Assembly (NCBI RefSeq): GCF_004803695.1
Contig: NZ_CP039393.1
Span: forward strand, 2,728,001-2,792,000
Length of the DNA: 64,000 nucleotides
Source: Muribaculum gordoncarteri
GTDB taxonomy: Bacteria; Bacteroidota; Bacteroidia; Bacteroidales; Muribaculaceae
Direction: 5' to 3'
Below are positions 1 through 21,093 of the stretch, piece by piece. A model generated the notes under the pieces. The model saw nothing but the letters and a program-made list of their open reading frames with translations, was not told where the DNA came from and searched no databases. Numbering within the stretch: position 1 is the stretch's first letter; each line of letters begins with the position of its first letter. Position numbers and translations under genes: made by a program.

Positions 1-606
1 TTTACGCAGACATTGTGCCACAGTCTTGCTTATCGGGGCATTGTCGGCAGAATATGTCCTTTCTGTAAAGACATTGGCCGCCACAACGTTGAGTCCGTTA
101 TAAGCCATGGTGTACTTGAGTTGTCTCCGGTCTGAAGATGTATTTTTTGTCATGCCGGTAGAGAAACCCTCCACAAGTTTGTTTGAGGTCTCGGCGACCA
201 TGGTGCTGTCAACGCGTATTATTTGCATGTCATCCAGTACAGCATCGGGTACATACTTAAGATATTTGGAGCATATCAGTGCATATGCCTCTTTGAAAAA
301 ATCTATATTTATCCTGGTCAGCCGCTCGCTGAAAGATGAATGAACCACCACTGTGCGCTTGCTGTCAGAGGTGCCATTTGTGTCCGTCATCAGCGGGATG
401 CCATTTTTTATCGATATAATCCTTTGACTGACCTGAGATGAAGACAGCATTGCAAATATGCAGTCGTCCATCATGTCTACTCCACGTAATTTTTTTGCTT
501 TGTAATCGACCTTTGTTTTGGCCGCTATCTCTGAGATTTTATCGTATGGGAGGTTTTTTATCACCCCGATGGCTGTTACATTATCTTTTGGGTGCTGTGT
601 AGTCAT
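1..606 (-). CDS. IS4-like transposase, N-terminal part (runs off left edge)
   Basis: An open frame starts with ATG at 606 on the minus strand and continues without a stop for 202 codons to the window edge. The protein begins MTTQHPKDNVTAIG and carries IIRVDSTMV around residue 140, which fits the first catalytic Asp (DST) of IS4-type DDE transposases. It is followed by a basic stretch and KYTMAYNG. The C-terminal half with the remaining catalytic residues lies outside the window, so whether the element is active cannot be judged. The right end of the element must lie between about 610 and 710, just upstream of the phage-like operon; no terminal inverted repeat can be confirmed with only one end visible. 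Family assignment is by motif recognition. Confidence 0.72.
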   Translation of the reverse strand, partial: MTTQHPKDNVTAIGVIKNLPYDKISEIAAKTKVDYKAKKLRGVDMMDDCIFAMLSSSQVSQRIISIKNGIPLMTDTNGTSDSKRTVVVHSSFSERLTRINIDFFKEAYALICSKYLKYVPDAVLDDMQIIRVDSTMVAETSNKLVEGFSTGMTKNTSSDRRQLKYTMAYNGLNVVAANVFTERTYSADNAPISKTVAQCLRK

Positions 607-713
607 ATCTGTTTTTTTGATATAACAACCAGGCTCGACTTTTTGCTGTGTCTTCCGACCACTAGAACCCTTGCGGGTTGCACAACACCACCCACACCCC
701 CCCCATACCCATC

Positions 714-755: not shown

Positions 756-763
756 TATATTTG
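756..763 (+). promoter_or_regulatory. -7 box of the phage-like operon promoter
   Basis: TATATTTG matches the Bacteroidetes TAnnTTTG consensus and is followed by CAG, as at the second copy near 58480. Transcription would start near 770, leaving a leader of about 20 bases before the ATG at 792. Confidence 0.7.
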
Positions 764-791: not shown

Positions 792-3245
792 ATGAAAGAC
801 TCCTGTCTAACCATTCCGGCCAAGCTCTCAGCCTTCGCCGACCCCGACAACTCCGTGATTAACCTCCGCGAAAACAACGGAATCCTCAATCCCGTAGGCA
901 TGCCCTCGACCGTGGTCGATCTCCCCGGGTCGTTGCTCACCTCATTCAGCCACGACGACGGCACCGAAACCCTCTTTATCGTTGATAGACTTGCACTTTC
1001 GGCTGTCCGTGGAGGCCGTGTGACCAAAATTGCCACACTACCTTCGGCGCCTGGTTGTGCCGTTGTCGACGGCCCAATGTTGATTGTCATGACCGATGAA
1101 GGCCCTTGGAGAGCCTGTTACGACATGATTTCGGAGCAGTGGCGCGAATTGGGATTGAATCCCGATTTCCCTGCCGTAGGGATTGAAATAGCCAATGAAC
1201 GTGAATTCCGTGAAACCTCCGGATTTCTCGATTTTGACGACGAATACTCGCCGGCCGGCATGACTATGCAGCCCGGCGACAGTCGCATGCTCAACCGTCT
1301 GCTTATGGAGTCCTACGACCGTTTGAGCAATTCGGCTCTCTCGCAGGACTACTACGTGCATCCCGTCCTTGCTGCCTATCGTATAATCGGCGACGATGGC
1401 GCCGTGTTGTATCGTTCCACCCCGGTTCTCGTTTCGCCACGAGGCTTTGAAATCGTGAAGCCGCTTAACGCAAGGCTCTACACAAGCGGCGGCAACATGT
1501 CGATGAGCAGTGGAGTTGACATTTCGCTCACCGGTTTCCGGCTTGCATTGCGTTCGCCCGCCGTTGTTGATTCGCCGTGGGCCGACAAGGCTGTTGCTCT
1601 CGAACTGCTCGTCACTCCACCGCTCGACCCTGTGCGCCGCTCCGAGTCGGCCCGTGTTTCACTTGGCTCTCCCGATGGCTCGATTCGTCCCTTTTCTGTC
1701 AGGATGCCTCTTGTCGGCGAATATCCCTCGATGGTTCAGCGTGCTTTTGAACGCTTTGACCTGATTGCCAAGGTAGCCGCCCGCTATACCAATCCCTTCA
1801 AGGGCGGAATAGCCCCCGAAGGCGGCACTCTTGTTCCTCTCCCTTGGTCCTACAAATACAATGTGCCCTACGATGGCCGCTCGGTGCAGATTGCTCTTGC
1901 CGTAAAGTCCATTCCCGAAACTCCTCCCTTTGAGCTCTCGCTTCCTCACACATTTACGGCCGCTTCCGCCGCACTTGTAGGCGACATGGCGGTATGGGGC
2001 GACATAACCCCCGTTCACGCCTTGCCCTCGGGAGCCGACCAGCTTGCCGCATCGACCACGGGCGGTGTGGGATGGAATGCGGTGACTCGTGTCACGATAA
2101 CCTCACGCGACGGTCGCAAGGAGATTATTTCGCGCTCCTCGGGTGGCGATGACAATGCACCCGCTTCGCTATGGCCTGTGGTGGCCTATCCCCACCCCGA
2201 TGCAACGAAGATGGAGGTGCGCATCACCCGCACCGACGGCATCGTGTTTACACGCACTTTCATGCTTGCTCCCGGTCCTGACGGCACGGTGGCCTGTTCA
2301 TCGGCTGTCGACTGCACCCCCGTTGCGGTTGAGGACAACTCCACGGCTCACGAAGTTATATCGCCTCTGATGGAGCGTGTCAGCTCGCGCCGTCCCGGAT
2401 TGATTGTTGCCGCTTCGGCCTCCTCTCCGCTTGCTCCGCTCTCGCAGCTTCCCGTGTCGCAGGGCGCCGTTACGGCCCTTACCGCCGCCTCAGGGTCGTC
2501 GAGTGCATGGGACTTCGCTCGCCGTCATCTCTACGCATTCACCTCGTCGGGAATATATGCCGTGGCGGTGAACTCCTCTATGTCGCTCGCCTCGGCCCAC
2601 ATCATCGACAGCCGGTGTGTGATGTCGCGCGACTGCGTGGCCTTTTCACCCGATGGTGTATATGCCGTGGCCTCAGGCGACCTGCTGAAAGTCACCGGTT
2701 CGAGGGCTCAAACCGTTGTGCGCTCTTGCGGCGGCGATGCTGTGGCCTGGAGCGTGTCGCGCGGCGAGTTGTGGCATGTTGCGGCCGACGGCACCGTCAG
2801 GGTCATGAATCCACGTTCGTTGTGGTATGTGCGCAAGGGCGTCGTTCCGCAGTCGATGCTTTCGTCGGGCAGCCGCCTTTACATCACCACCGGCACAGCA
2901 TTGCTCGATGCCTCGGTCGAGAGTGTCGGCGAGGTCGATGTGGCGTTGCATTCGCGTGTCGAGCTGCCTGAGCCGTATGCCCTGCGCCACTGTTCACGGC
3001 TGTCGTGTGTCATGTCGGCCGGTCGTGGCAAGTTGACCATGAACCTGTCGGGCGACAATGGCTCGGGACATCCCCACAACCTTTTGTCGGTCGATTTTGA
3101 GGCCCCTGTGTGGAATGTCGTCACTCGCCGCATTCTCGGGCCGGCGCGCCGTTTCCTCACTGTGAGCTTGGCGGGCACCGTTGACTCCGGGGCCTTGATT
3201 GCTCGGTTTTTAGTTGACTTCGGCGATGGAAGGCGTAAATATTGA
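792..3245 (+). CDS. Large unrecognised protein, probably phage-derived structural protein
   Basis: I do not recognise a named family. The frame is open from further upstream, but ATG at 792 (MKDSCLTIPAKLSAF) fits the promoter at 756 and gives 817 residues. There is no signal peptide or membrane segment. The sequence is rich in short beta-type segments, with Ser/Val/Ala-rich repeats in the C-terminal half that read like beta-propeller blades (HLYAFTSSGIYAVAV, CVAFSPDGVYAVASGD, ELWHVAADGTVRVM). Its stop overlaps the start of the terminase gene by 20 bases, so the two are one translational unit. That coupling suggests a virion or packaging-related role, for example a stem or tail-stabilising protein, but this is inference from context only. 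Confidence 0.55.
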   Translation: MKDSCLTIPAKLSAFADPDNSVINLRENNGILNPVGMPSTVVDLPGSLLTSFSHDDGTETLFIVDRLALSAVRGGRVTKIATLPSAPGCAVVDGPMLIVMTDEGPWRACYDMISEQWRELGLNPDFPAVGIEIANEREFRETSGFLDFDDEYSPAGMTMQPGDSRMLNRLLMESYDRLSNSALSQDYYVHPVLAAYRIIGDDGAVLYRSTPVLVSPRGFEIVKPLNARLYTSGGNMSMSSGVDISLTGFRLALRSPAVVDSPWADKAVALELLVTPPLDPVRRSESARVSLGSPDGSIRPFSVRMPLVGEYPSMVQRAFERFDLIAKVAARYTNPFKGGIAPEGGTLVPLPWSYKYNVPYDGRSVQIALAVKSIPETPPFELSLPHTFTAASAALVGDMAVWGDITPVHALPSGADQLAASTTGGVGWNAVTRVTITSRDGRKEIISRSSGGDDNAPASLWPVVAYPHPDATKMEVRITRTDGIVFTRTFMLAPGPDGTVACSSAVDCTPVAVEDNSTAHEVISPLMERVSSRRPGLIVAASASSPLAPLSQLPVSQGAVTALTAASGSSSAWDFARRHLYAFTSSGIYAVAVNSSMSLASAHIIDSRCVMSRDCVAFSPDGVYAVASGDLLKVTGSRAQTVVRSCGGDAVAWSVSRGELWHVAADGTVRVMNPRSLWYVRKGVVPQSMLSSGSRLYITTGTALLDASVESVGEVDVALHSRVELPEPYALRHCSRLSCVMSAGRGKLTMNLSGDNGSGHPHNLLSVDFEAPVWNVVTRRILGPARRFLTVSLAGTVDSGALIARFLVDFGDGRRKY

Positions 3246-5130
3246 CGAAATCCTGCGCGAGAACGTGCGTCGCAACCGCAGTCGCGTTGTCGATTACGAC
3301 CCGATTAGAGGTATCGGTTGCCTCGGCGTGCGCCGTGAGGTTGACAGCCCCGACTCTCATTTGCCGGAACTGGTGCCTGAGGCCATGCTCGACGACCGTT
3401 GCTACATTGCCGCGTCGGGCGATGCCGTGGGATGGGTGAAACTGCGCTCGATCTACGACTTCGAGTACTGGGCGGCCAAGTGCGTCAAGATTAAGGACAA
3501 GCTCACGGGGCGCGATGTGCCATTCGTGCTTAATCGTCCGCAGCGTCGAGTGCTTGGCGTGCTCGAGAAGCAGCGCCTTGCCGGCCGACCGTTGAGGCTG
3601 ATTATGCTAAAGGCGCGTCAGTGGGGCGGCTCCACGCTTGTGCAGATGTATATGGCATGGATTCAGTGTACGCAGTGTCGCAACTGGCACTCGCTCATCT
3701 GCGCCCATGTCAAGGACACTGCCGCATCCATCAGGGGCATGTACACCAAGATGCTTGCCTGCTATCCGCAGGAGTATTGGGCCGAAGAGTCGCCTCCGCA
3801 GTTCCGTCCCTACGAGCGGTCGATCAACACCCGTGTCATCTCGGGGCGTGATTGCCGTGTCACCGTTGGATCGAGCGAGGGGCAGGAGGCTGTGCGCGGT
3901 TCCGACTATGCAATGGCTCATCTCAGCGAGGTGGCTTTCTGGCCCGATACCGCCATGCGCTCGCCCGAAGGGTTCATCCGTGCCGTGTGCGGAGGCATAG
4001 CGCGTGCTCCGCTCACCCTCATCGTGCTTGAAAGCACCGCCAACGGCGTGGGCAACTATTTCCATGCCGAGTGGCTGCGCTCGGTGCGCGGCGAGAGCGA
4101 CAAGGCCGCCGTGTTTGTACCGTGGACCGAAATCGACATCTACGCCGACGAGGTGCGCGATGCCGCTGCGCTATGGGAGGCGATGGACGACTATGAGCGC
4201 AAGCTGTGGGACGACGGCTGCACGCTGGAGCAGATTCAGTGGTATCACGACAAGCGCCGTGAGTATCCGTCGCGCGAGCTGATGGCCGCCGAGTATCCTT
4301 TAGACGATGTGGAGGCATTTGCCAACACCGGCTACGGTGTATTTGGCATCGACCTTGTGAGCCGTCTGCGCGAGCGATGCCTGCCGCCCGTGGCTGTGGG
4401 CGATGTGACAGCTCTCTCGCTCAAGGGATTCGGTGCGCTGGAGGGTGTGCGCTTTGTCGCCGACTCGCGCGGGCCGCTCAAGGTGTGGCATTTTCCTGAC
4501 AACGGGATGTCGCGTTGGAACAACCGCTATGTCGTGGCGGTTGACATCGGAGGCCGCTCGGCTGCAAGCGACTTCTCGGTCATCGCCGTGATCGACCGCA
4601 TGGGTGCGTCGGGCAAGCCGGAGATTGCCGCACAGTGGCGCGGACACATCGACCACGACCTGCTCACATGGCGTGCCGCGTCAATAGCGCAGTGGTATGA
4701 CTCGGCTCTGTTGGTAATCGAGAGCAACACTCTTGAAACCGAAAACACCGACGGCGAGCACTCACTCTACATGTTGTCGGAGCTGAATCATGTCTACCCC
4801 AATCTCTACCGTCGACCGCTGCTCGACAGCGTGCGAGGCGGCGAGGAGCTTCGCGTGGGATTTCACACCAACCGCTCGACCAAGAGCATCGTCATAAATC
4901 ATCTCATAGGCGTGGTGCGCGACGATGCCTATGTGGAGCGCGATGTCGATGCGTGTGACGAACTGGCCGTCTATGAGTGCCGGCAGTCGGGCCGATTCGC
5001 GGCAAAGCCCGGCCACCATGACGACATTCTCATGACTCGTGCCATAGGGCTTTATGTGGCGTCGGGGATGCCCGAGCCGGTGCTGCGCCGTCGCAGTCCG
5101 TTTTCCCGCCGTTATGTCAAGATTGTGTGA
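3226..5130 (+). CDS. Phage terminase large subunit (TerL), complete
   Basis: TerL is the ATP-driven DNA packaging motor of tailed phages, with an N-terminal ATPase and a C-terminal RNase H-like nuclease. Both halves look intact. The ATPase has MLKARQWGGST (deviant Walker A, about residues 126-136), AHLSEVAFW (Walker B region, about 230) and ESTANG (coupling motif, about 268). The nuclease has VVAVDIGGRS (about 436), LLVIESN (about 495) and GHHDDILMTRA (about 596), supplying three acidic positions. ATG 3226 (MEGVNIDEILREN) is preferred to an in-frame TTG at 3214. It overlaps the preceding gene. No small terminase, portal or capsid gene follows: the next genes are metabolic. Intact motifs without a prophage suggest domestication or a dispersed phage-like system. 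Confidence 0.85.
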   Translation: MEGVNIDEILRENVRRNRSRVVDYDPIRGIGCLGVRREVDSPDSHLPELVPEAMLDDRCYIAASGDAVGWVKLRSIYDFEYWAAKCVKIKDKLTGRDVPFVLNRPQRRVLGVLEKQRLAGRPLRLIMLKARQWGGSTLVQMYMAWIQCTQCRNWHSLICAHVKDTAASIRGMYTKMLACYPQEYWAEESPPQFRPYERSINTRVISGRDCRVTVGSSEGQEAVRGSDYAMAHLSEVAFWPDTAMRSPEGFIRAVCGGIARAPLTLIVLESTANGVGNYFHAEWLRSVRGESDKAAVFVPWTEIDIYADEVRDAAALWEAMDDYERKLWDDGCTLEQIQWYHDKRREYPSRELMAAEYPLDDVEAFANTGYGVFGIDLVSRLRERCLPPVAVGDVTALSLKGFGALEGVRFVADSRGPLKVWHFPDNGMSRWNNRYVVAVDIGGRSAASDFSVIAVIDRMGASGKPEIAAQWRGHIDHDLLTWRAASIAQWYDSALLVIESNTLETENTDGEHSLYMLSELNHVYPNLYRRPLLDSVRGGEELRVGFHTNRSTKSIVINHLIGVVRDDAYVERDVDACDELAVYECRQSGRFAAKPGHHDDILMTRAIGLYVASGMPEPVLRRRSPFSRRYVKIV

Positions 5131-8366: not shown

Positions 8367-10595
8367 TCAGTTTCCAAGTTCAAGTTGGTTTTTAACAAGG
8401 TTATAGTAGTGTCCGCGGGCCGCTATCAGCGAGTCGTGGTTGCCCGACTCTACAATTCGCCCTGCATCGAGCACGATTATGTTGTCGGCGTCACGCACCG
8501 TCGACAGTCGATGGGCCACTACCACCACCGTGCGACCACGGTAGAACCGTGACAGGTTGCTCACGATTTCCCGCTCGTTGCGAGCGTCGAGCGAGTTGGT
8601 GGCCTCGTCGAGAAATATGTAGTCGGGGTTGCGGTACACGGCACGGGCAATGAGTATGCGCTGTTTCTGTCCCTGGCTCAGGCCCACCCCGTCGCGTCCT
8701 ATCTTGGTGTTGTATCTCAGCGGCAGCGACATGATGTAGTCATGGATGCATGCCGTTCGGGCGGCCTCCTCGAGCCGGGCCTCGTCGATATCGCCGTCGC
8801 TCACCGCTATGTTGCGCGCTATCGATTCCGAAAATATGACACCCTCCTGCATCACCACTCCGCACCGCCTGCGCCACCATGTCATGCTGTAGCGGTTGAT
8901 GTCGGCACCGGCTATGTCTATGCTCCCGCAATTGACCGGGTAATAGCCGAGCATCAGTTTAATCAGCGTGGTCTTTCCGCTGCCCGACGCCCCAACTATG
9001 GCCGTCACTTGCCCCTGAGGCACCGTAAAGGTTATGTTGTCGAGGGTGTTCTTCAGCGCATGGAGGTCATACCTGAAGTCGATGCCGTTCAACGTTATCG
9101 AACGATTCATGTCGTCGGCATAGCGGGTTAGGAGCTCTCCGTCGTCCTCCTCGTTGCGTCGGCCGTGTATCTCGTTGATGCGTTCAAGCGATATCTTCAC
9201 ATCCTGAAGCGAGTAGATGAAGCTCATGATTTGTGCCACGGGCGAGTTGAGCTGTCCGATGACATATTGCACGGCGAGCATGGCTCCGAGAGTCATGTCA
9301 CCGTTGATTACGGCAGTAGCGGCAAACACCGTTATGACGATGTTCTTGACCTCGTTGATGAATATCGAACCGGCTTCCTGGGTCTGCTGAAGGCTCAGCG
9401 AGCGCATCTGCACCTCAAAGAGGTCGGCCTGCGCATCCTCCCACTCCCAGCGTCGTCGACGCTCACAGTCCTGCAGCTTTATCTCCTGCATGGTGGTGAT
9501 GAACTGGTAGGTGCGGTTCTGGTTCACGGCCTGACACTCAAACAGTTCATAGTCGATCACCTTGCGTCGACGCAGGAATGCCGATATCCACAGGGCATAA
9601 CAGAGGCTGCCGATGACAAACACCATGAAAATCAATTGACTGTAGACAAACAGCACGACTCCAAACACAATGAAGCTCAGCATCGTAAACATTACGCCGA
9701 GAGTCTGCCCGGTAAGAAACGACTGCACGCGCGAGTGGTCGCTCATGCGTTGCAGCAGATCGCCCATAAGCTTTGTGTCGAAGAACGACATAGGCAGCTT
9801 GAGCAGCTTGATGAAAAAGTCGCTCACAAGCGAGATGTTGATGCGCATCGAGATGTGGAGCAGGAGCCAGCGGCGTATAAAGTCGGTGGCGGTGCGTCCG
9901 GTCACTATCATGAGTTCGCCGAGCAGGATGAGCCATATAAGGCCTATGTCGGCATCGTGGATGCCACGGTCGACAATGGCCTGTGTGAGAAACGGCATGG
10001 CAAGCTGCAGCACGCATCCGAGCAGAAGCCCGAGGAATATCTGGGCGAAGTAACCCCGATACTGCTTTATGTAGCCGACGAGAAACCTGAACGAGCGACG
10101 CTCACCCGCCTGTTCCGATTCAGCGTCCGATTGCCCGAAGCGGGGTCCGGGCTGAAGTAGCAGGGCTATGCCCCGGTCCTCGTCGCCGCTTCGTGTGCTT
10201 GCCCATCGCCGCATGAACTCATCACGGCTGTAGGTTAGCAGCCCCTTGCCAGGGTCGGCTATGTGATAACGGCCCCGGCGGTCGATGCGGTAGAGCACCA
10301 CGAAGTGGTTTTGGTTCCAATGCAAGATGGCCGGCAGTGGCGACTGTGACAGCTCACCCGGAGAGAGGCGCACCGAAGCGGTTTCAAATCCGAGTTCCGA
10401 AGCCGCTTGCGACATACCGCGCAGCGACACTCCTTCGGTAGTGGCGTGGCATAGCTCTTCAATCTGCGACAACGTACAGGCCCATCCGTAGTGGCGGCAT
10501 ACCATGGTGAGGCATGCCACGCCACATTGCATCGAGTCGCGCTGTTTTATCCAGGGAAACCGCCTGAATCGCCGTCCGATTGATTGAAAGTCCAT
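8367..10595 (-). CDS. Peptidase-containing ABC exporter (C39, bacteriocin/RiPP type)
   Basis: At 742 residues this is a full PCAT: it cleaves double-glycine leaders and exports the core peptide across the inner membrane. The C39 peptidase (about residues 12-145) has the catalytic Cys in QRDSMQCGVACL, His in WNQNHFVVLY and Asp in HIADPGKG. A six-helix membrane domain follows (about 165-460). The ATPase has Walker A GASGSGKTT (about 535), signature LSQGQKQR (about 638) and Walker B YIFLDEATNSLD (about 658). It is the only exporter beside two GG-leader precursor genes, so it probably serves both cassettes. It lies on the same strand downstream of the left cassette, with a fossil gene end in between. 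Confidence 0.93.
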   Translation of the reverse strand: MDFQSIGRRFRRFPWIKQRDSMQCGVACLTMVCRHYGWACTLSQIEELCHATTEGVSLRGMSQAASELGFETASVRLSPGELSQSPLPAILHWNQNHFVVLYRIDRRGRYHIADPGKGLLTYSRDEFMRRWASTRSGDEDRGIALLLQPGPRFGQSDAESEQAGERRSFRFLVGYIKQYRGYFAQIFLGLLLGCVLQLAMPFLTQAIVDRGIHDADIGLIWLILLGELMIVTGRTATDFIRRWLLLHISMRINISLVSDFFIKLLKLPMSFFDTKLMGDLLQRMSDHSRVQSFLTGQTLGVMFTMLSFIVFGVVLFVYSQLIFMVFVIGSLCYALWISAFLRRRKVIDYELFECQAVNQNRTYQFITTMQEIKLQDCERRRRWEWEDAQADLFEVQMRSLSLQQTQEAGSIFINEVKNIVITVFAATAVINGDMTLGAMLAVQYVIGQLNSPVAQIMSFIYSLQDVKISLERINEIHGRRNEEDDGELLTRYADDMNRSITLNGIDFRYDLHALKNTLDNITFTVPQGQVTAIVGASGSGKTTLIKLMLGYYPVNCGSIDIAGADINRYSMTWWRRRCGVVMQEGVIFSESIARNIAVSDGDIDEARLEEAARTACIHDYIMSLPLRYNTKIGRDGVGLSQGQKQRILIARAVYRNPDYIFLDEATNSLDARNEREIVSNLSRFYRGRTVVVVAHRLSTVRDADNIIVLDAGRIVESGNHDSLIAARGHYYNLVKNQLELGN

Positions 10596-10609
10596 CGCCG
10601 TATATCTAA

Positions 10610-10665
10610 TTGGTGACTAAAGGTTTATCAGTAGGTTATGTTGACGCCGGAGTCGATACCATAGC
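10610..10665 (-). pseudogene. Fossil 3' end of a cassette-B type outer-membrane gene
   Basis: This 56-base stretch matches the 3' end and flank of the outer-membrane gene at 17417-17472 with only 4 differences by eye. On the minus strand it still reads YGIDSGVNITY and a stop (TGA here, TAA in the intact gene); the coding differences are synonymous. It shows that a gene of the cassette-B type once ended directly upstream of the exporter. Confidence 0.75.
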
Positions 10666-10718
10666 AAAGCTTGTTTAGAATACATGCCTATGTATCATTT
10701 CTTTAAGCAAGGGCGGGA

Positions 10719-12806
10719 TTAATCCTGCTTGGCGGTGTTGGAGTCGATCAGGCCTGAGTCATTGTCGCTGTTGTTGAGCGACTTCTTGGCTTGCTTTCGT
10801 GCCTTTCCCTTTGAGAAGAAGTATGTCAGGTTTATGGCGACAAGATTCTTCATCCCCTTCCAGCATGTCGATTCCGTGGCCGAGAAGCCTATGCCGCGGT
10901 AACGCACGTAGTCGTTCTGAGAGGCATACCGCCACTCCACGCCGGCCGATAACGCCCCCTTTTTCCATGACACCGAAGCGTAGTACTGCCAGCCGCTGCG
11001 GGTGACCATGTCGCCGCTAAATGACTTGTCGGGCGAGTTGACGGATGCGATGAACTGCAAGCGGCGATAGGACATCGCCACCATGCCTCCTATGCGGTGA
11101 TAGTTGTGCCGTATGGTTGAGCTTGGCGTTGAGTATCCGTCGTGGAAGTACTGGTAATAGCTCTGCAGCATCATCCAGTTGCATGGCGAGTAGTTGACTA
11201 TCATCGTGCCGTTGAGCTCGTTGCGTGCATTTATCCTCATCGGCATCATGACGATGTTGTCGCCATCCGACAGCAGGCACGGCACGTTGGGATGATGGGA
11301 GTAGAGGTACTCGATTGACGGAGAGAGCGACAACCACCCGTCGGATGTAGAGTACTGGGGCTTAAATGTCAGCGAGAATGTCCTGTAGGGCTTCAGGGCG
11401 GGATTTCCCGTAGCGATGAAGCGTGAGTCGATGTTGACCCGGTTTTCGGCAAGGTCGCCGGTAGTGGGTCGCGTTCCCTTAAGCTTGGCGATGAGGCGTG
11501 TAGAGAATGTGCGCGTAAACCGATAGAAGAGTGTGAGCGACGAATAGGGTATCACGTTGACGAAGCTCTGGCCCGATACGGGGTGCTGTGCAACCGCATT
11601 GGCACCGAGCGACGCGTAGTAACTCAGTCGCTTATAGCGTCCGGTGTAGGCGATGTAGGCGTAGTGCTGGCGCATGTTGAGATAGGATTCGGGGCCGCCG
11701 TTGTAGGACTGGCGCAGCTCCTTGTAGTTGAAGTAGGCGCCTGTGTTGAGCTCGCCTTTCCACAGCGGCGTGGTGTAGTCGGCCTGTGCTATTATCGAAT
11801 AGTAGCGGTTGTCGATGTTGTTGAGTATATCGTAGTCCATCGACGAGTATTGCTCCGGCATCTTGAGCCACAGCCGGTTGTGGGATTCCGATGAGGAGAA
11901 TGTGTTTACCACATTCACCGCAAGGGAGCGTTTGCCGGCAAAGTCATGCCTGAAGTAGAGGTCGGCGCTCCAGCGGTCGTCGTCGCTGCGCAGGTCATGG
12001 TCCCTGAGTCCTGACAAGTCGCGTGCATTGTCGGTGTAAAGAGTCGACTGCTTGTTCCTTATGTGTCCCGGACGGTTGCCGTAGCGCACATTGGCGTTGA
12101 ACAGGTTGGCTCCCTGGTAGCGCTGATATATGAGCTGTCCGTATTGGTAATGTCCCGAATATTGTCCGTCGCGGCTTCGGTAGGATGACAGTGCCGACCG
12201 GTAGTCGTAGTCGGCATTGGTGCTTCGGTCGACATTGCGGTAGTCGATGAAGTAGTTGGCCGTGAGCATATTGAGCGAGTCGGCATAGGTAAGGCTTGCC
12301 TGATCGGTGCCGTAACCGGTGGTCACTGCGTTAAGGGCGTTTATGTAGGCGCTGTAGAGGCGGTCCTTGCGGCGGCGTATCGTCACGTCGATAACCGGGC
12401 CTGAGGCCATCATCTGGTATTTGGCCGGCGGCTCATGGTAGTAGGTCACCTTCTTTATGTCGTTACCCTGATAGGTGCGCAGTGTGGCTGCGTCGGACGG
12501 CATGCCGTTGATGAATATCGCCACGCTCCTCATGTCGGCCGTTTGCAGTGAAGTAGCGCTTATGGCGGTCGAGAACTGGGGCAGGCTTGAGATTGCATCA
12601 AGTGCGTTGGTGCCGAATTCGCGTTGTTTTTTCGTAAGGATTATCTCGTCGCGGTTGCCTACCGACTGCACAAACTCAGCCTGTACGGTCACCTCCTTCA
12701 GCGATATTGTGGTGTCGTTTTTCTCGCGATTGTCGCTTAGGGCGTAGTCGGGAACCGAGATGAAGAGCAGGCACAGCAGGGCTTTTATAATCATGGCAGT
12801 CTTCAT
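10719..12806 (-). CDS. Outer-membrane beta-barrel protein, cassette A
   Basis: ATG 12806 (MKTAMIIKALLCLLFIS) gives a clear signal peptide and 695 residues; it begins 7 bases after the maturase stop. A TonB-plug-like segment (ISLKEVTVQAEF, then NALDAISSLPQF, VAIFINGMPSDAATLR, about residues 30-150) is followed by a long series of Tyr-rich alternating beta-strands, as in the outer-membrane beta-barrel family related to TonB receptors. Unlike its cassette-B paralogue it lacks an N-terminal carboxypeptidase-regulatory-like domain, and its C-terminus is a Lys/Asn-rich tail (KARKQAKKSLNNSDND). It may pass the peptide through the outer membrane or act as receptor; sequence does not decide. It is GC-richer than the maturase next to it. 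Confidence 0.75.
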   Translation of the reverse strand: MKTAMIIKALLCLLFISVPDYALSDNREKNDTTISLKEVTVQAEFVQSVGNRDEIILTKKQREFGTNALDAISSLPQFSTAISATSLQTADMRSVAIFINGMPSDAATLRTYQGNDIKKVTYYHEPPAKYQMMASGPVIDVTIRRRKDRLYSAYINALNAVTTGYGTDQASLTYADSLNMLTANYFIDYRNVDRSTNADYDYRSALSSYRSRDGQYSGHYQYGQLIYQRYQGANLFNANVRYGNRPGHIRNKQSTLYTDNARDLSGLRDHDLRSDDDRWSADLYFRHDFAGKRSLAVNVVNTFSSSESHNRLWLKMPEQYSSMDYDILNNIDNRYYSIIAQADYTTPLWKGELNTGAYFNYKELRQSYNGGPESYLNMRQHYAYIAYTGRYKRLSYYASLGANAVAQHPVSGQSFVNVIPYSSLTLFYRFTRTFSTRLIAKLKGTRPTTGDLAENRVNIDSRFIATGNPALKPYRTFSLTFKPQYSTSDGWLSLSPSIEYLYSHHPNVPCLLSDGDNIVMMPMRINARNELNGTMIVNYSPCNWMMLQSYYQYFHDGYSTPSSTIRHNYHRIGGMVAMSYRRLQFIASVNSPDKSFSGDMVTRSGWQYYASVSWKKGALSAGVEWRYASQNDYVRYRGIGFSATESTCWKGMKNLVAINLTYFFSKGKARKQAKKSLNNSDNDSGLIDSNTAKQD

Positions 12807-12813
12807 GTGCGCG

Positions 12814-14091
12814 TTATTTGCAATGTTCAATGAAATCTATTAAAGAAGTTTCGATATTTGAATCTTGAGCATCCATTTTGCAATAATTACGTTTTTTTGC
12901 ATGGTCACGAGGACAAATTCCCATACATACGGGTAAATACTTGCAATTTAGACATTTGGGATTCTCATAGCTTTTTTCTTGATACAATTTGTCAAAATTG
13001 TTTTTCCATTCAATTTTTCCGTCTTCCTGTAGCTGTCCGGGAGGATTGCTTTCATATAAATCATTGCAAGCAGTGCATTTTACAACACCGCCATTATAAT
13101 TTATAGCATTGTAATACTCCCTATTAGCATAACAGGGCACGAAATTGTCAACGATTTCCATTCGTGCTGCATTATATCCGTAATCATTGAATTCATCAAG
13201 AATTGAAATAGTTGACAATTGGAAATTTTTGTCAACACTTTCCTGCCATACTTTTTTAGGTGTTATGGTCAATTGTTTTCTGTTTTCCGGCGAGATGTAT
13301 TCATTGATTTGACTTACTATTTTGTTAGTTAATGTTTTATGCGTATAATTTATGCGTAGAACAATATTCATATCCTTTAACGCCGACAATATTTTGTCGA
13401 TGTTGCCCAATGTATGTACAAATGCTGAATCGCAGCCGTTTTGGAATTTTACTTTGTCATGGTTCCCTTTATCCCCGTCCAAAGTTATCTGAAATCCGGA
13501 AAATTTCAACCGTTTTAAATCTTTGATTTTATCAGAGGATAGAAAATATCCGTTTGTGGTTGCTGAATTTAGAAATGGAATTTTAGCTTTATCACATTTT
13601 TCTATTGCGTATTCGCTAATTGGAGCTATCACTTGTTTAAAGTACATGAATGGCTCTCCTCCAAACCATTCTATGTGGAGAGATGTGATATTTCGCTCAT
13701 CAATCATGTAATCAATGTGTTTCTTTACTCGAGTTATAGTTTCCTGCGACATCATTGACGGAATGTGATTCTGTATGCAGTACCAGCATTTGTAATTGCA
13801 ATTCAGTGTCGGTAAAATTACTAAAAAATAATCTTTTGAATGTATTGTTTCAAGATTTCTTTTTCGGATTACCTCAATTTCATCAACATTATCATCAATT
13901 ATAAACTCATTGTCGACTAATTTTTGATAAAAGGATGGTGCCGATTCTTTTAATATTTCAGGGTTGCAAATTAAAGGTTTTATCTTATTACCCAATTCTA
14001 TAGGGAGAGTAAAGAATTTATGTGATACCCCGTTATACCAATAGCTTTTTGAGTCTTTAGATAGGATATAGTTGTAATGACTTGGTTTCAT
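12814..14091 (-). CDS. Radical SAM/SPASM peptide maturase, cassette A
   Basis: A 425-residue enzyme of the radical SAM peptide-modifying type. The SAM cluster motif is CNYKCWYC (CX3CX2C, about residues 98-105), followed by EWFGGEPFMYF and a TTNGYFLS segment. The C-terminal SPASM part carries many Cys: CYANREYYN, VVKCTACND, NPKCLNCKYLPVCMGICP, NYCKMD, enough for two auxiliary clusters. Residues 1-90 form a precursor-recognition-like N-domain. Such enzymes form Cys-to-carbon thioether or related crosslinks; the Cys-rich precursor encoded 53 bases upstream is the obvious substrate (inference). The gene is AT-rich compared with its surroundings. Confidence 0.9.
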   Translation of the reverse strand: MKPSHYNYILSKDSKSYWYNGVSHKFFTLPIELGNKIKPLICNPEILKESAPSFYQKLVDNEFIIDDNVDEIEVIRKRNLETIHSKDYFLVILPTLNCNYKCWYCIQNHIPSMMSQETITRVKKHIDYMIDERNITSLHIEWFGGEPFMYFKQVIAPISEYAIEKCDKAKIPFLNSATTNGYFLSSDKIKDLKRLKFSGFQITLDGDKGNHDKVKFQNGCDSAFVHTLGNIDKILSALKDMNIVLRINYTHKTLTNKIVSQINEYISPENRKQLTITPKKVWQESVDKNFQLSTISILDEFNDYGYNAARMEIVDNFVPCYANREYYNAINYNGGVVKCTACNDLYESNPPGQLQEDGKIEWKNNFDKLYQEKSYENPKCLNCKYLPVCMGICPRDHAKKRNYCKMDAQDSNIETSLIDFIEHCK

Positions 14092-14107
14092 AATTATATG
14101 GTTTTAA

Positions 14108-14134
14108 TAGGAGCAATATTTTATATTGCTCCTA
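14108..14134 (-). terminator. Hairpin between precursor A and maturase A
   Basis: TAGGAGCAATAT pairs perfectly with ATATTGCTCCTA around three bases, followed on the minus strand by TTAAAACC. It lies in the 53-base gap between precursor and maturase, where a partial terminator or RNA-stabilising hairpin would raise precursor over enzyme. Cassette B has an unrelated hairpin in the same place. Confidence 0.7.
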
Positions 14135-14144
14135 AATAGTAAAA

Positions 14145-14372
14145 TTAAGGTTCTTCTACCTTGCCTCCTCCGGCTTCAAATCCGTCCTCGTTTTCATCGA
14201 CAGGACAAGCGCATCCCGCTTTGCGATTGACACATTGCATGTCCAATTCGCAAGCACATCCTACTACTGAATTGGAGCATTGATACTGTAAAGTTATGCC
14301 TGAACGACCTCCTTTAACCTCCAATGCTTCTAACTCTGAGAGTTCTTGAAATGAAAATATACTCTTAAGCAT
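14145..14372 (-). CDS. Double-glycine RiPP precursor peptide A (Cys-rich)
   Basis: A 75-residue peptide. Leader residues 1-22 (MLKSIFSFQELSELEALEV then KGG) end in Gly-Gly with the hydrophobic spacing typical of C39-processed leaders. The 53-residue core holds six Cys in two similar units: QCSNSVVGCAC and QCVNRKAGCAC, i.e. Q-C-x-N-x3-G-C-A-C, separated by ELDM. The tail is acidic and Gly-rich (DENEDGFEAGGGKVEEP). It sits between a secreted DUF3244-like gene and the maturase. I infer Cys-based crosslinks placed by the adjacent radical SAM enzyme and leader removal by the C39 exporter. Confidence 0.85.
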   Translation of the reverse strand: MLKSIFSFQELSELEALEVKGGRSGITLQYQCSNSVVGCACELDMQCVNRKAGCACPVDENEDGFEAGGGKVEEP

Positions 14373-14457
14373 AGTTGTTACTAATTATTAAATGCTTCCT
14401 ATTAACGTAATTCGGCATCCACGACATTTTTTACCCTGTTATGTTCAGTATATAACG

Positions 14458-14464
14458 TGCGCAT
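14458..14464. promoter_or_regulatory. Single GTGCGCA site upstream of precursor A
   Basis: The 7-base core found six times at 14911-15011 occurs once more here, in the gap between the DUF3244-like gene and the precursor. A single 7-mer can occur by chance. Confidence 0.3.
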
Positions 14465-14471
14465 ATTATAT

Positions 14472-14846
14472 CTATTTTACAAAATTTCCTATATAGGTTG
14501 TTTCATCGATGTTAAGGTATAGGGTGTAGCTTATGCCTTTAGTCAATCCTGTTATTGTAAACTCTTGGCATTGATTATTGGTGCTTGACGGATACCCGCT
14601 CCACACCATGTTGTTATTTTTTAAAACAACTACAGTTACATTATCACTGTATTCGCCATATACGCGTAACACATCATTGTCATCGATGGTGACATAAGGA
14701 GAATGTTTTGACGGCATTCTTTTGGGAAGGTTTTTATTATCTGGATGGTCATTTTCAGTGCATACAGGAATAATATCTTCTCCTAATAGCATTATATTCA
14801 TTGAACATATAGCAGCAATAATTAATGATATAAATCTAGTTTTCAT
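14472..14846 (-). CDS. Secreted DUF3244-like protein, cassette A
   Basis: A 124-residue protein with an N-terminal signal peptide (MKTRFISLIIAAICSMNIMLL) and a small beta-sandwich-like C-terminal domain (SPYVTIDDNDVLRVYGEYSDN to the end) of the kind called DUF3244 in Bacteroidetes. The last 76 residues are nearly identical to those of the cassette-B protein, while the N-terminal parts are unrelated. It is the first gene of the peptide operon, 98 bases before the precursor. Its role is unknown; a periplasmic chaperone, immunity or binding protein are all possible. Confidence 0.65.
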   Translation of the reverse strand: MKTRFISLIIAAICSMNIMLLGEDIIPVCTENDHPDNKNLPKRMPSKHSPYVTIDDNDVLRVYGEYSDNVTVVVLKNNNMVWSGYPSSTNNQCQEFTITGLTKGISYTLYLNIDETTYIGNFVK

Positions 14847-14872
14847 TTTATAAAGTGTTAAAAATTATATCA

Positions 14873-14880
14873 CAAATATA
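14873..14880 (-). promoter_or_regulatory. -7 box of the cassette A peptide operon
   Basis: Read on the minus strand this is TATATTTG (TAnnTTTG). It lies 26 bases upstream of the DUF3244-like start, and the operator array begins 31 bases upstream of it, a usual activator position. Confidence 0.65.
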
Positions 14881-14910
14881 AAATGAGGCTTTATTCTATC
14901 CAAGATTTTT

Positions 14911-15011
14911 AGTGCGCAAAAAGTGCGCATTTTCAAAAAATGTTATTCTTTAGTGCGCAAAAAGTGCGCATTTTCAAAAAATGTTATTCTTTAGTGCGCA
15001 AAAAGTGCGCA
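14911..15011. repeat. Operator-like iteron array, cassette A (period 41)
   Basis: AGTGCGCA occurs six times at 14911, 14922, 14952, 14963, 14993 and 15004. The two copies in each pair are 11 bases apart (one helical turn) and pairs repeat every 41 bases (about four turns). The array lies between the TPR-HTH regulator stop and the peptide operon promoter, so all sites face the same side of the helix. I infer a cooperative binding site, most simply for the regulator encoded next to it. Confidence 0.75.
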
Positions 15012-15029
15012 AAAAACGTATTAATACAT

Positions 15030-16799
15030 TTATAATGAGCGGATAAATGAGTCCCAATCTCGGGCTGACGCTTTCTCAATTTTGAATACTTTTGCATATA
15101 GTCTAGATCTAATAGATGTTACGGTTTCTTTTGAGCGATTAACCATTTTGCTGATGTTGGACGGGCTAATGCCTATCTTTATGAGCATTGTCACTCTCCA
15201 TTCCAATGCACTCATGAATCTGTCGGGATGCAGTTTTTTATAAAAATCAGGACAATTGGAAATTATGGATTTTTCAAGAGCTTTCCACTCATTATATGAT
15301 AGATTGAAATTATTATCCGAAATATTTCTTTTTATCTTCCCAACAATCTCGCTTGACATTAATTTATTGTCGGAAATTTGTTTGGAACTTGTCAAATCTT
15401 CCAGTTGTGCCGTGGTTTGATTTAATGTGTTTTCTAATTCGGTAATGTAGTCGGTCAATGAATTTACTTTCTCATTATATGAATGGTTTTCTAAAAGCAG
15501 ATTTGTTATTTTCGCATGCAATTCTTCCGTTACTTTCAATTTTTCATTGAGAATATTCTCAGTTTCGCTCTCATGTAAGAATTTCATATTATTAAGTAAT
15601 TCTATTTGGTGTTGTGATTTCAATTTTATTGATTTCCACCAAAAGAATATAAAGAGCATAATCAATATAGATATAGCTGACAATATTATTATAATCTTGT
15701 TTTTGCGCGCATTATTGACTTTTAAGTCGCTGTTTTCTATTTTATATAGTGAATAGTCATAATTTGCCTTTACACGAGCTACAGCTTCAGCACCCTCTAT
15801 CTTTCTAATTGAATCAACCGCATCGAACGCTTTGTTATTGTATTTTAAAGCATCATGCCATTGCATTTTTTGTATGTGATACAGTGTAATATTTCTATAA
15901 GCATTCCTTTTTGCATATATAGAGCCGTTATCACATAACCATAATAGATATGGCAATGCTTGTTGTGATTTGCCCCGTTGCATATAAATTTTGGATGTTA
16001 TAGCATATAATACACTTTTTAAATTCTCGGTTTTATAATCATACATAAGAGCTTTCTCTATTAGAGAATCGGCTACCTCTTTGTTGCCCAATGAGTTTTC
16101 AAGATATGCATATTGTGAGAGTAGACATCCAGATAATTCCTCTTCATTGATACTTTGTGATAACTCATATGCTTTCTTATAACAGATTAATGCGCTATCT
16201 TCATGATTCATGTTAATGTAAGTGTGAGCTATCTCTTTCAATCCATCAATTATAAACAATGTGTCGTTTAGCGCATAGGATAAATCCAATGATTTTTTAT
16301 TAGCGTTAAGCGCATATTCAAAAAGACCTTGTCTATAATATAAATCACCGATTTGGGTATATATGTACGTTCTTAATCTGTCATTATCGTTTGAAATGAG
16401 GGAGTTGACTGCTTTCTGGTAGTAGTCGAGGGCGCGGGGAGCGTCGCCGAGGTCGCTGTAGACTCGTCCGGCGTAATATAGGGCAAGCGGTGTGAGATCG
16501 GGGTCGGAGTGGCCGGTGAAGTACTCGACCACGGGGGCTATCATCGAGTCGTTGCGGTGCTCGATGTAGGCCTTGTCGCGTGACTTTATAAGCATCAGGT
16601 CGTAACGCATCCGCGTTGCCTTGTCGGCTTGATTGATGGCGGGTGACAGTGAGTCGAGGAGCGCGATTGCGCTGTCGGGGCAGGTGTCGGCGAGCCGTCC
16701 GGCGCGGTCGATGTCGTCGCGCAGACGCGAGTTGTCGGCACACCCGGCGACGACGGCGATGCACACGACGGTGATGAATATGTGTAACAAATGCTTCAT
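15030..16799 (-). CDS. TPR lipoprotein-type membrane regulator with C-terminal HTH, cassette A
   Basis: A 589-residue protein. The signal sequence ends in a lipobox (VVAGC, Cys20). TPR-like helical repeats fill about residues 25-360 (LALYYAGRVYSDLGDAPRALDYY and similar). One membrane segment (about 366-388, IIIILSAISILIMLFIFF) is followed by a coiled coil (about 395-470) and a C-terminal helix-turn-helix-like domain (MLIKIGISPSNISKMVNRS, then SIRSRLYAKVF) ending DWDSFIRSL. This fits a sensor outside the inner membrane joined directly to a DNA-binding domain. The first 126 codons are almost identical to cassette B and GC-rich; the remainder is AT-rich and divergent, so the gene is a chimera. 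Confidence 0.8.
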   Translation of the reverse strand: MKHLLHIFITVVCIAVVAGCADNSRLRDDIDRAGRLADTCPDSAIALLDSLSPAINQADKATRMRYDLMLIKSRDKAYIEHRNDSMIAPVVEYFTGHSDPDLTPLALYYAGRVYSDLGDAPRALDYYQKAVNSLISNDNDRLRTYIYTQIGDLYYRQGLFEYALNANKKSLDLSYALNDTLFIIDGLKEIAHTYINMNHEDSALICYKKAYELSQSINEEELSGCLLSQYAYLENSLGNKEVADSLIEKALMYDYKTENLKSVLYAITSKIYMQRGKSQQALPYLLWLCDNGSIYAKRNAYRNITLYHIQKMQWHDALKYNNKAFDAVDSIRKIEGAEAVARVKANYDYSLYKIENSDLKVNNARKNKIIIILSAISILIMLFIFFWWKSIKLKSQHQIELLNNMKFLHESETENILNEKLKVTEELHAKITNLLLENHSYNEKVNSLTDYITELENTLNQTTAQLEDLTSSKQISDNKLMSSEIVGKIKRNISDNNFNLSYNEWKALEKSIISNCPDFYKKLHPDRFMSALEWRVTMLIKIGISPSNISKMVNRSKETVTSIRSRLYAKVFKIEKASARDWDSFIRSL

Positions 16800-17203
16800 A
16801 GCTTCCGCGAATATACGAATAATCCGCGAAATTCACCCAATAAAAGTGGCGGGCGGAGGGGAGGGATATGCGGCGTGCGTGTGCTCCGCGTGACCTCCGC
16901 TCAATCATCAAATCCCCGCGATAGCGTGAGAGCTGCGTAGCTGCTCAATAAGTTTAGCCTCATGCAAATACGCCCTTGGGTGCGTGCAGCGTGAGGTCAT
17001 GTCGTGCCCCCACCATCCCCGAGGGCTGCGTTAGCTGCCCAATAAAATGTTATCGTTGCCGGGTGGAGCGTTTTATTGGGCAACTACGTAGCCCTTTTCC
17101 TTTTTTGTTATCGCTTTTTACCCGTGCTGCGGACGCCTAACGGCGGCCTTGCGCGGGCCTAACGTTATTAAGCAGCTAACGCAGCTTTGGCGCTAACGCG
17201 GGG
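16421..17203. repeat. Long direct repeat, left copy
   Basis: This segment is nearly identical by eye to 23321-24104, with scattered substitutions and one 1-base indel. It covers the first 126 codons of the regulator and about 400 bases of upstream DNA. Identity stops abruptly at both ends: on the left inside the regulator reading frame (after LDYY), on the right in GC-rich filler. Confidence 0.9.
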
Positions 17204-17434
17204 TCCACGGGTAGGCCTACGGCCAACCCGCGGTTAAATACATGTAATGCCTTCGGCATATACCGGGTGGGTATTTGCGCTGACGCGGGAGCGGACGCGG
17301 TGCGGGAGCTGACGCGGGGGGCTGCGGACGCATTCGCCCTGCGCTGCGCGGGGCGAGGGCACGGGCATTTGCGGGTGCGCTGCGCGGGGAGAGGCGCGAG
17401 GCGGATGCGTGGTTATTTGGTGGCTAAAGGTTTA
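16800..17434. other. Intergenic region between cassettes, no gene seen
   Basis: The 635 bases contain no convincing gene. The first 400 belong to the long direct repeat and hold four related palindromic units. From 17204 to 17416 the sequence is GC-rich degenerate filler built from variants of GCGGACGCGG and CTGACGCGGG. The same kind of filler follows the right copy. Confidence 0.7.
16931..17186. repeat. Four-unit nested palindromic element (left copy)
   Basis: Four variants of a roughly 23-base unit, GCTGCGTTAGCTGCcCAATAA, occur in the order forward (16931), forward (17024), reverse (17071-17093), reverse (17163-17186). The inner pair (17023-17047 with 17071-17094) forms a long imperfect stem. 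It resembles a small non-autonomous mobile element or a REP-like structure. The same structure recurs in the right copy (inner pair 23924-23948 and 23972-23995). Confidence 0.6.
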
Positions 17435-17472
17435 TTAGTAGGTTATGTTGACGCCGGAGTCGATGCCGTAGC
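17417..17472 (-). repeat. 3'-end repeat of outer-membrane gene (intact copy)
   Basis: This covers the last 12 codons, the stop and 18 bases beyond. It is the partner of the fossil at 10610-10665 (52 of 56 bases the same by eye). Confidence 0.75.
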
Positions 17473-19744
17473 TTGAGGTTGAGCGGTTGCCCTTGCGGAG
17501 CCTTTTTCCGAAGTTAAGGCTGTAGCGCACGCCTATGCTTACGAGGTTGGCAAAGTTCTTCAGGTAATAGTCGGAGTACTCGGGGTGTACGCTTGACAGC
17601 ACCCAGTTTCGCTGCCTGATGCCGTGCTTTGAGAATATTTGTGATATCGATGCCGAGAATGTCCATTGGCGATAGCGGTAGCTGACATCCACACTGCTGA
17701 ATCGTGATCTTTCGTTGAGATTGTTGGTGCTCAACTGGTATCCCGGGATGAGGGTGAAGTTGGCGTTTACCGTCCATGTGTCCCAGTAGAAGGATGCCTG
17801 TGCATCGGCATTCCAGGTGCATTTATCATATCGGAATCCCTCGCCTCGGGTGGAGTATTTGCCCCATCCGCCCCACACTGCGAGCGACAGATGGTTGAGA
17901 AGGTTGTTGACGCTCATCGAGAGTGACATGCCCATTCGGCGGTTGTTGTGGCAGTTCTCGGGACGCATTAGAAACTTGCCGGCGATTTCCGACGAGGGGT
18001 CGTCGACATAGCTGTAAACGTTCATTATCGGTCGCTTTACATAATTGTAGAACACTTCGCCCGAAGCGTAGAACTTTCCGTGGCCGTATTGGATCGACAG
18101 TCGGTTGGAGGTGGTTGTCGTCGACTTGAGATCGGGATTACCGGTGCGGTATAGAAGCTCGTTTACGGGTGTGAACACATTGGAATAGCGTGACAGGCCC
18201 GGTGACGACGGCTGCCACTGAAGCTGGTATCCCGCACTGAAGTCGTTGCCGAAATAGCGGTTTAGCGACATAGTAAAGCTGGGCCTGAGCATTGAGCTTG
18301 TGACCCGATTATAGCGAAGTCCGGCAGCAAACGAGTAGCCGATGTCGAGCAGTCGTCCGCCAATTGAGGCGTAGCCGTAGAAGACATGCGAACTTGCATC
18401 GTCGGCAATCGGGTTGCCGTTGTTTATCGTGGTCTTTCGGTCGGAGTTGGTGAATCGGTATTGGATTCCGTATCGGGTGCTTACCGACGAGTAGCGGTGG
18501 GAGTAGAGGGCCTCACCGCCGATGAACCATGCTGTGTTGTTGATTTTGTTGAGGTCGGAGTAGCCCGTGGTGTTGACTATGTCGCGGTAGTAGTCGCCAC
18601 GGCTGAGCGAGGTTGTGACATTCAGCTCCATCACGCCGTTGGCGCTTGTGTTTTCGCGATAGTATAGGTCGAGAGTGGGCGCGAGCGACTTGAAGTCGCG
18701 ACTTGTGCGTTCGGTGTAGGAGGAACTTATCTCCTGCACTTCGGTGTCCTCGTCTTGATTCTGGCTATGCTGGTCAAGCAGCAGCGACGCGATGAATATG
18801 CGCTTGTCGGACGGCTGTCGCGTGTAGTCGATGCGCAGGCTGTTGTAGCGGTCGATTGTTGTCGACGGAAGTCCGTGATAGTACAGGCGGGTGACGTTGC
18901 CGCCTCCTATGTACTCTTCCTCCTTGTGGGAATACTCCTTGTCGGAGTCGCGGAACCCTCCCGAGTAGTTGATTGACACCTCATTGGCTCCGTGTCGGTA
19001 GGATGCCGCCACCTGCTGCGAGGTGCGTTTTGCGGTCAATGCCGGATTCAGGTAGGCCATTACGCTTCCTCCCTTGTCGACAGGCACGGTTATGATGTTG
19101 ACCCAGCATGCCCCGTAGCGCACATCGGGGTAGCTGCAGTACTCTACTCTGGCAATGTTTTCAGGAATCAGAGCCGTGAGGTCCTCGATTCGGCGCTGTA
19201 CGCCGTTGATGAGTATCTTTGCGCTCTGCCCGTTGATTGTTATCGTGTTGGTGAGTGAGTTTACTTTCAGTTCAAGCGACTTGAACGACAATGAGTTCAG
19301 TAGTCCCATCATGCCCGGCGCGCGCTTAATCTCCTCAGCCGATGGAATGAGGATGGTGCGGTCGGTAAGCCGATTTACGGCCTTGGCCGACACGGTCACT
19401 TCGGCCAGCCCGATTGTTGAGGGTGACATGGCCACGCTTCCAAGGTCGATGTCGCTGCCGGCCCCTGAAAGTGAGAGCGACAGGCGGCTATAGGAGGTGG
19501 CGTCCACTGTGATGATGAGCTGCTCAGTGACACTGTCGACATTGACGGTAAATGTTCCTTTGCCGTCGGATGTTCCGCGTGCTATTACGGTTGAGTCAGG
19601 TGATGCGATTGTCACTATGGCTCCCGGCACCGGGTCCTTGAGGGTGTTGTCGACTATGCGTCCGCGCACTGTGAAAGCCTCGGCGGTCAATGCCGAAATG
19701 ATTGCAACTAATGTGATAGATAGAATTTTTATACTGATGCGCAT
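17435..19744 (-). CDS. Outer-membrane beta-barrel protein with N-terminal CarboxypepD-regulatory-like domain, cassette B
   Basis: 769 residues with signal peptide (MRISIKILSITLVAIISALTAEA). An Ig-like carboxypeptidase-regulatory domain (FTVRGRIVDNTLKDPVPGA to about 110) precedes a plug-like segment (LAEVTVSAKAVNRLTD, ILINGVQRRIEDL, about 115-220) and a C-terminal barrel of Tyr/Ser-rich strands, ending YGIDSGVNITY. It belongs to the same broad family as the cassette-A barrel but is clearly divergent and has the extra domain. It starts 70 bases downstream of the cassette-B maturase. A role in passing the mature peptide across the outer membrane, or in its uptake, is inferred from context only. 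Confidence 0.77.
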   Translation of the reverse strand: MRISIKILSITLVAIISALTAEAFTVRGRIVDNTLKDPVPGAIVTIASPDSTVIARGTSDGKGTFTVNVDSVTEQLIITVDATSYSRLSLSLSGAGSDIDLGSVAMSPSTIGLAEVTVSAKAVNRLTDRTILIPSAEEIKRAPGMMGLLNSLSFKSLELKVNSLTNTITINGQSAKILINGVQRRIEDLTALIPENIARVEYCSYPDVRYGACWVNIITVPVDKGGSVMAYLNPALTAKRTSQQVAASYRHGANEVSINYSGGFRDSDKEYSHKEEEYIGGGNVTRLYYHGLPSTTIDRYNSLRIDYTRQPSDKRIFIASLLLDQHSQNQDEDTEVQEISSSYTERTSRDFKSLAPTLDLYYRENTSANGVMELNVTTSLSRGDYYRDIVNTTGYSDLNKINNTAWFIGGEALYSHRYSSVSTRYGIQYRFTNSDRKTTINNGNPIADDASSHVFYGYASIGGRLLDIGYSFAAGLRYNRVTSSMLRPSFTMSLNRYFGNDFSAGYQLQWQPSSPGLSRYSNVFTPVNELLYRTGNPDLKSTTTTSNRLSIQYGHGKFYASGEVFYNYVKRPIMNVYSYVDDPSSEIAGKFLMRPENCHNNRRMGMSLSMSVNNLLNHLSLAVWGGWGKYSTRGEGFRYDKCTWNADAQASFYWDTWTVNANFTLIPGYQLSTNNLNERSRFSSVDVSYRYRQWTFSASISQIFSKHGIRQRNWVLSSVHPEYSDYYLKNFANLVSIGVRYSLNFGKRLRKGNRSTSSYGIDSGVNITY

Positions 19745-21062: not shown

Positions 21063-21093
21063 TGTAAGGATTGATTTGGGGTGTATTTAATTA

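Follow-up and report, generated by a model that had tools for sequence, protein, structure and literature searches.

In the chromosome of Muribaculum gordoncarteri, a gene for a phage-type terminase large subunit (TerL) forms an operon with one large partner gene among genes of the host, which raises the question of what such a packaging motor is kept for. The window analysed here is the whole stretch of 64,000 nucleotides at C1:2728001-2792000 of a genome (G000) of 3.43 Mb, which is 99.99% complete and comprises three contigs. The initial annotation of the window had described an orphan terminase operon, preserved by selection for DNA packaging or for a new use. The features of this operon and of its companion loci are listed in Table 1.

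Table 1. Features of the terL operon (window positions) and of the companion virion loci (positions on contig C1).
Feature	Position	Strand	Remarks
Insertion sequence (IS4-type, DDE_Tnp_1), right part	window 1..669	-	Whole element 1387 bp, 717 bp of it beyond the left edge of the window
Promoter-like site TATATTTG	window 756..763	+	Between insertion sequence and operon; consensus match only
Partner, virion-type structural protein, 817 aa	window 792..3245	+	Homologue of BF1-TP2 gp33
TerL, terminase large subunit, 634 aa	window 3226..5130	+	phrog_2 match; ATPase and RNase-H-like nuclease residues intact
Portal, 456 aa	C1:180174-181544	-	phrog_156; BF1-TP2 gp61 homologue
p182, 182 aa	C1:181563-182111	-	BF1-TP2 gp54 homologue
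Major capsid protein (MCP)	C1:182108-183328	-	PF17236; BF1-TP2 gp56 homologue
p138, 138 aa	C1:183337-183753	-	BF1-TP2 gp57 homologue
gp58-like	C1:2831896-2832429		BF1-TP2 gp58 homologue
p153, conserved, 151 aa	C1:2832474-2832929		Directly after gp58-like

Genomic neighbourhood of the terL operon

The partner stop and the terL ATG at 3226 overlap by 20 nt; this start (634 aa) is likelier than the alternative TTG at 3214 (638 aa). The site TATATTTG, which fits the Bacteroidales -7 promoter consensus TAnnTTTG, is a putative promoter of the operon. No phage genes adjoin the operon on either side. To its right a ferredoxin oxidoreductase operon is situated, and the synteny with it that had been proposed for comparison was found in the closest relatives and only there. 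On the left, the insertion sequence (IS; inverted repeat GGTTCTAGTGGTCGGAAGA, 5-bp target duplication CTTGC at 670-674) stands between the operon and susD and is not part of the packaging system. Its insertion point lies in intergenic DNA of the SusD operon, and a SusC/SusD carbohydrate-use locus and sugar-metabolism genes follow beyond it. Because the flanks are formed by SusC/SusD and oxidoreductase genes, no local prophage is present, and the IS hits only intergenic DNA.

According to the initial annotation, its reading would be refuted if the operon proved to belong to a complete prophage that assembly or a recent IS insertion to the left of the window had split. A clean target duplication abutting the operon could point in this direction, but the 1387-bp element is intergenic with the SusD gene and the carbohydrate-use locus beyond, and many other genomes, single-contig ones among them, also carry partner and terL away from any prophage; the probability of a split prophage is close to nil. 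A contiguous set of integrase, repressor, replication and virion genes, as expected of an intact prophage, was not encountered at the loci.

Elsewhere in the window (8367-23732, minus strand), a cluster that includes low-G+C stretches encodes a C39-peptidase ABC exporter along with two radical SAM proteins, TPR proteins and a TonB receptor; it looks like a locus for the biosynthesis and export of a RiPP (modified peptide).

The terminase large subunit and its partner

TerL matched the large terminase family phrog_2 (4.9e-18) as well as phrog_38407 and phrog_24361, and T4 gp17 was matched weakly; no Pfam model matched either TerL or the partner. The ATPase and nuclease residues that had been reported as retained are all present (P-loop LKARQWGGST, SEVAFW, D..G/D, E, HDD). 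In both domains the catalytic residues are invariant across 129-135 chromosomal relatives and follow the same pattern in phages, which also share the deviant P-loop with GGST instead of GK[ST]. Judged from these invariant active-site residues, TerL is predicted to be competent for packaging. The window genome holds one copy of such a TerL. The nearest viral TerLs, at about 41% identity, belong to the temperate Bacteroides phages BF1-TP2, BS-TP4 and BKO1-TP3 and to IMG/VR contigs. In the public records of these three phages the large terminase is labelled 'tail spike protein'; that of BF1-TP2 is PQ571263 gp60 (L125 20118-22145). On a small contig of the same genome (G000:C2:48913-49632, L001), possibly a plasmid-like phage or prophage, there is another terminase that is unrelated to this TerL (Terminase_6N, 497-aa frame).

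The initial annotation had coupled terL to a large protein of unknown nature. The coupling stands, given the overlapping 817-aa frame, but iterative profiles identified the partner as a homologue of BF1-TP2 gp33 (899 aa, phrog_32516). The partner evolves fast, and no match to solved structures (PDB) was obtained by sequence and profile search. HHalign comparison of the eight families with single T7 and P22 proteins was uninformative, for the TerL-TerL and portal-portal controls failed as well. Our guess is that the partner may be a tail nozzle or another tail part.

Virion genes at other chromosomal loci

The gene list of BF1-TP2 served as guide in the search for further virion genes. The matches to portal (phrog_156) and MCP (PF17236) fell into a single region, C1:180195-183034, which is remote from the window. 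They belong to a capsid operon with the order p138-MCP-p182-portal (C1:180174-183753), flanked by DNA polymerase I (polA), prenyl synthetase and ThiF genes on one side and by glycosyltransferase genes on the other. A gp58-like gene and p153 form a pair near 2.832 Mb, with a TIR/Sel1-protein gene on one side and a gene of CorC type on the other; MgtE is also in the flank. In many relatives the gp58-like gene stands immediately behind portal, often with p153 next, and in phage BF1-TP2 gp58 lies two genes upstream of terL. For seven of the eight genes BF1-TP2 holds a homologue (partner gp33, p138 gp57, MCP gp56, p182 gp54, portal gp61, TerL gp60 and the gp58-like gene), and the phage origin of the set is certain. 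Four of the products are shortened relative to the phage: besides the partner these are portal (456 versus about 645 aa), p138 (138 versus 283) and p182 (182 versus 222).

The terL operon thus looks orphan because its companion virion genes sit at other chromosomal sites. The earlier observation that portal, capsid and integrase genes are missing around terL is correct for the adjoining DNA, but portal and MCP are present elsewhere in the chromosome. The designation as an orphan operon has to be given up, as MCP, portal, p182, p138 and the gp58-like gene are conserved at two other loci.

Neither an integrase nor the giant virion protein was found in the flanks and stretches examined around the three loci, and no tail fibre, lysis or injection genes were recognised for the Muribaculaceae set in the loci examined. 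As tail parts, p182 and the partner are candidates.

Capsid-forming PICIs (cf-PICIs) do not amount to a full phage but carry genes for head and packaging; they are integrase-bearing islands that package themselves. The Muribaculaceae genes could by analogy belong to a satellite or capsid-forming island which packages DNA of its own and obtains its tails from a helper phage. A gene set for head and packaging that lacks complete tails would suit such an island, and helper-like prophages do occur in Muribaculaceae. However, the flanks examined hold no integrase or island gene, and three distant loci (polA/ThiF, MgtE/CorC and oxidoreductase) leave nothing coherent to package, which makes this explanation very unlikely. 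Unlike cf-PICI genes, those of Muribaculaceae are placed at fixed dispersed sites and form no island. A contiguous island with an integrase was not encountered; the three distant loci lie among housekeeping genes.

Compact clusters and sister families

In some relatives the genes are held together. MCP, p182, portal, partner and TerL are consecutive in two genomes (G042, L169; G069, L170), and in a third (G019, L171) partner, TerL, p138, MCP, p182 and portal lie inside 10 kb, as do five of these six in a fourth (G017, L156). Because such relatives hold the genes as one compact cluster, the simplest reading is that the cluster is ancestral and that the genes became dispersed later in the window genome. 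In a further genome (L152 14467-16885; G062:C1, ~379.5-381.9 kb) two ORFs of 533 and 262 aa, sizes typical of IS21 istA/istB, separate p182 from MCP, the capsid genes themselves being intact.

Among 296 Bacteroidales genomes, MCP was present in 27, with a concentration in Muribaculaceae and in a further five families (f17, f23, f48, f55 and f88); TerL and portal were found in 16 of 16 genomes tested from these five. The sister-family set is fuller, including gp55 and a full-length portal, with a fibre-like 367-aa gene in some. Near TerL, several sister-family loci encode an 83-aa protein, a gp70-like protein and a shortened relative (773-864 aa) of the giant protein. This set is dispersed too, as in G352, where portal, MCP and TerL lie at 1.149, 1.395 and 1.427 Mb. 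In loci of four sister families (L160, L161, L162, L164, L165 and L168) MCP is adjoined by a fumarase-type gene, the domain of which was identified in L160; in L219 a SecA gene was seen near TerL. In the sister families MCP and TerL thus have fixed addresses. Directly upstream of terL, a conserved gene of 78-141 aa occurs in L068 (7654-7905, 83 aa) and nine other sister-family loci; it is a candidate small terminase.

Occurrence in Muribaculaceae and comparison with true prophages

TerL was present in 140 of 147 Muribaculaceae genomes and 25 of 26 genera, although a few of the 140 may hold prophage copies only; the frame is almost always open, with broken copies in a few genomes. In the set of 59 genomes, MCP was found in 57, partner and portal in 56 each, and the gp58-like gene in 50. 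At least eight conserved genes are shown at three loci among host genes, most of them in nearly all sampled Muribaculaceae; many of the sampled genomes are MAGs, and chromosomal placement was seen in G000 (one large chromosomal contig), G062, G332 and G352.

As a marker of complete prophages of this lineage, the giant virion protein was searched with a homologue profile of reduced length. Clear matches were obtained in only five of 59 genomes (G001, G043, G046, G055 and G067), which are exactly those with extra full-length portals, and each of the five carries the domesticated portal too. In these Muribaculaceae prophages (L232-L236) the giant protein is a single ORF of 5000-6400 aa, versus 3633 aa in BF1-TP2.

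Low carbon content and high G+C are a bias reported for GTA (gene transfer agent) proteins. Within the prophage-carrying genomes, domesticated TerL (four of the five) contains 4.95-5.02 carbon atoms per residue versus 5.09-5.16 in the prophage copies, and domesticated portal 4.85-4.96 versus 5.22-5.25. The G+C content of the domesticated TerL and portal genes is higher than that of the prophage copies in the same genomes, and the carbon bias is partly circular because higher G+C by itself lowers carbon.

Selection and descent

The ratio of non-synonymous to synonymous change, proposed earlier as a check for terL across related genomes, had a median of 0.10 for TerL (55 pairs), 0.19 for partner (6 pairs) and 0.12 for MCP (6 pairs), with 0.13 for p138 (1 pair); the pairs are non-independent and some come from overlapping loci. 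Purifying selection acts on all three of TerL, partner and MCP. The TerL tree recovered the genera g1, g2, g4 and g11 as the rpoB tree did, and TerL and rpoB distances were correlated (rho 0.39, p 0.0065). In a quick tree of 61 rows with SH-aLRT support, the 28 domesticated Muribaculaceae TerLs formed one clade (100). A second clade (99) was made up of the sister-family TerLs and included L065, beforehand labelled as phage, while most phages and the five Muribaculaceae prophages formed a third (91).

These data bear directly on whether the genes are decaying prophage remnants, left independently in many genomes. Their certain phage origin, the scattering and shortening and the broken copies in a few genomes would agree with decay. 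Near-universal presence, a dN/dS of about 0.1, invariant active sites, trees that follow genera and a single TerL clade apart from current prophages argue against it, and this explanation is extremely unlikely. The initial suggestion that preservation reflects selection is borne out by the dN/dS of about 0.1, the invariant catalytic residues and the family-wide presence; what is selected is best understood as DNA packaging.

Proposed function of the gene set

Several criteria of a GTA are observed here: host chromosomes of many species encode head and packaging proteins of phage type, inheritance is vertical under purifying selection and, in the flanks examined, neither an integration or replication module nor a prophage organisation was found. 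A further GTA trait is a small terminase (TerS) without specific DNA binding; the gp58-like gene, by the position of its phage counterpart two genes upstream of terL, may at most be considered for this role. From the genes and their conservation, the terL operon probably belongs to a domesticated podovirus-like element that is spread over at least three chromosomal sites and would act as a GTA. The set kept at scattered sites is probably no phage wreckage but serves to build gene-transfer particles. In such a particle, p138 and MCP would assemble a small head, and TerL would dock on the shortened portal and load host DNA through headful packaging, with little preference for sequence. The head may then be sealed, and a short tail formed, by p182 and the partner, after which the cell would lyse and the particle carry the DNA to relatives.

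A phage-derived particle could also have been put to another use, as a DNA-filled or empty capsid, as a killing particle or by interference that poisons the assembly of related phages; TerL would then be kept because the particle needs its motor. No tail fibre or injection genes are recognisable in the set, intact phages of the same lineage infect Muribaculaceae, which makes capsid interference conceivable, and the fast evolution of the partner would fit as well. Against this stand the invariant ATPase and nuclease residues and the retention of portal, MCP and the scaffold-position gene, which correspond to the needs of DNA packaging; interference would not require these three genes all together. 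Such reuse is therefore considered rather unlikely. On balance, Muribaculaceae, and five sister families with a fuller version, seem to carry an ancient podovirus-derived GTA whose genes have drifted to separate addresses.

Comparison with known systems

The nearest functional precedent for the Muribaculaceae set is FpGTA of Faecalibacterium (PMC12946183), a podovirus-like GTA in two loci for which particles, about 9 kb of DNA and proteomics have been shown and which is conserved in all Faecalibacterium genomes examined in that study. Both occur in gut bacteria and combine podovirus-like TerL, portal, scaffold and MCP genes split over separate loci. FpGTA differs in its Bacillota host and its known lysis and tail-fibre genes, whereas the Muribaculaceae set belongs to Bacteroidota. 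For Bacteroides, lateral transduction and not GTAs was reported in the same paper (PMC12946183).

RcGTA and its relatives in Alphaproteobacteria (PMC7947584, PMC6854486) are likewise virus-derived, vertically inherited and located at dispersed loci, with TerL under constraint and without replication or integration genes (PMC7947584, PMC6854486). They differ in the lineage of capsid and TerL, and in RcGTA the TerS, tail and lysis genes are known. Compared with the Muribaculaceae set, phages BF1-TP2, BS-TP4 and BKO1-TP3 are complete genomes of 64-68 kb; BF1-TP2 has an integrase, a repressor, replication genes and a 3633-aa protein, whereas the Muribaculaceae loci examined stand without phage context. 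RcGTA is siphovirus-like, with a head-tail cluster of 14-15 genes. No GTA in Bacteroidota was found described in the literature searched, preprints and most subscription journals being outside its coverage.

Significance

Muribaculaceae are among the most abundant bacteria of the mouse gut and common in other mammals, and DNA exchange among them is poorly known. Where a genome shows a terminase gene that is isolated but intact, this can be the visible part of a dispersed system overlooked by prophage finders. The question lends itself to testing, as isolates are available, few genes are involved and existing virome reads can be searched for Muribaculaceae chromosomal DNA. If true, this would be the first GTA described in Bacteroidota, representing a new phylum and an independent GTA origin in a dominant gut lineage. 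Retention of capsid and packaging genes throughout the family, well beyond the time for which prophages usually survive, would mean that these bacteria have a built-in, particle-mediated route of gene exchange.
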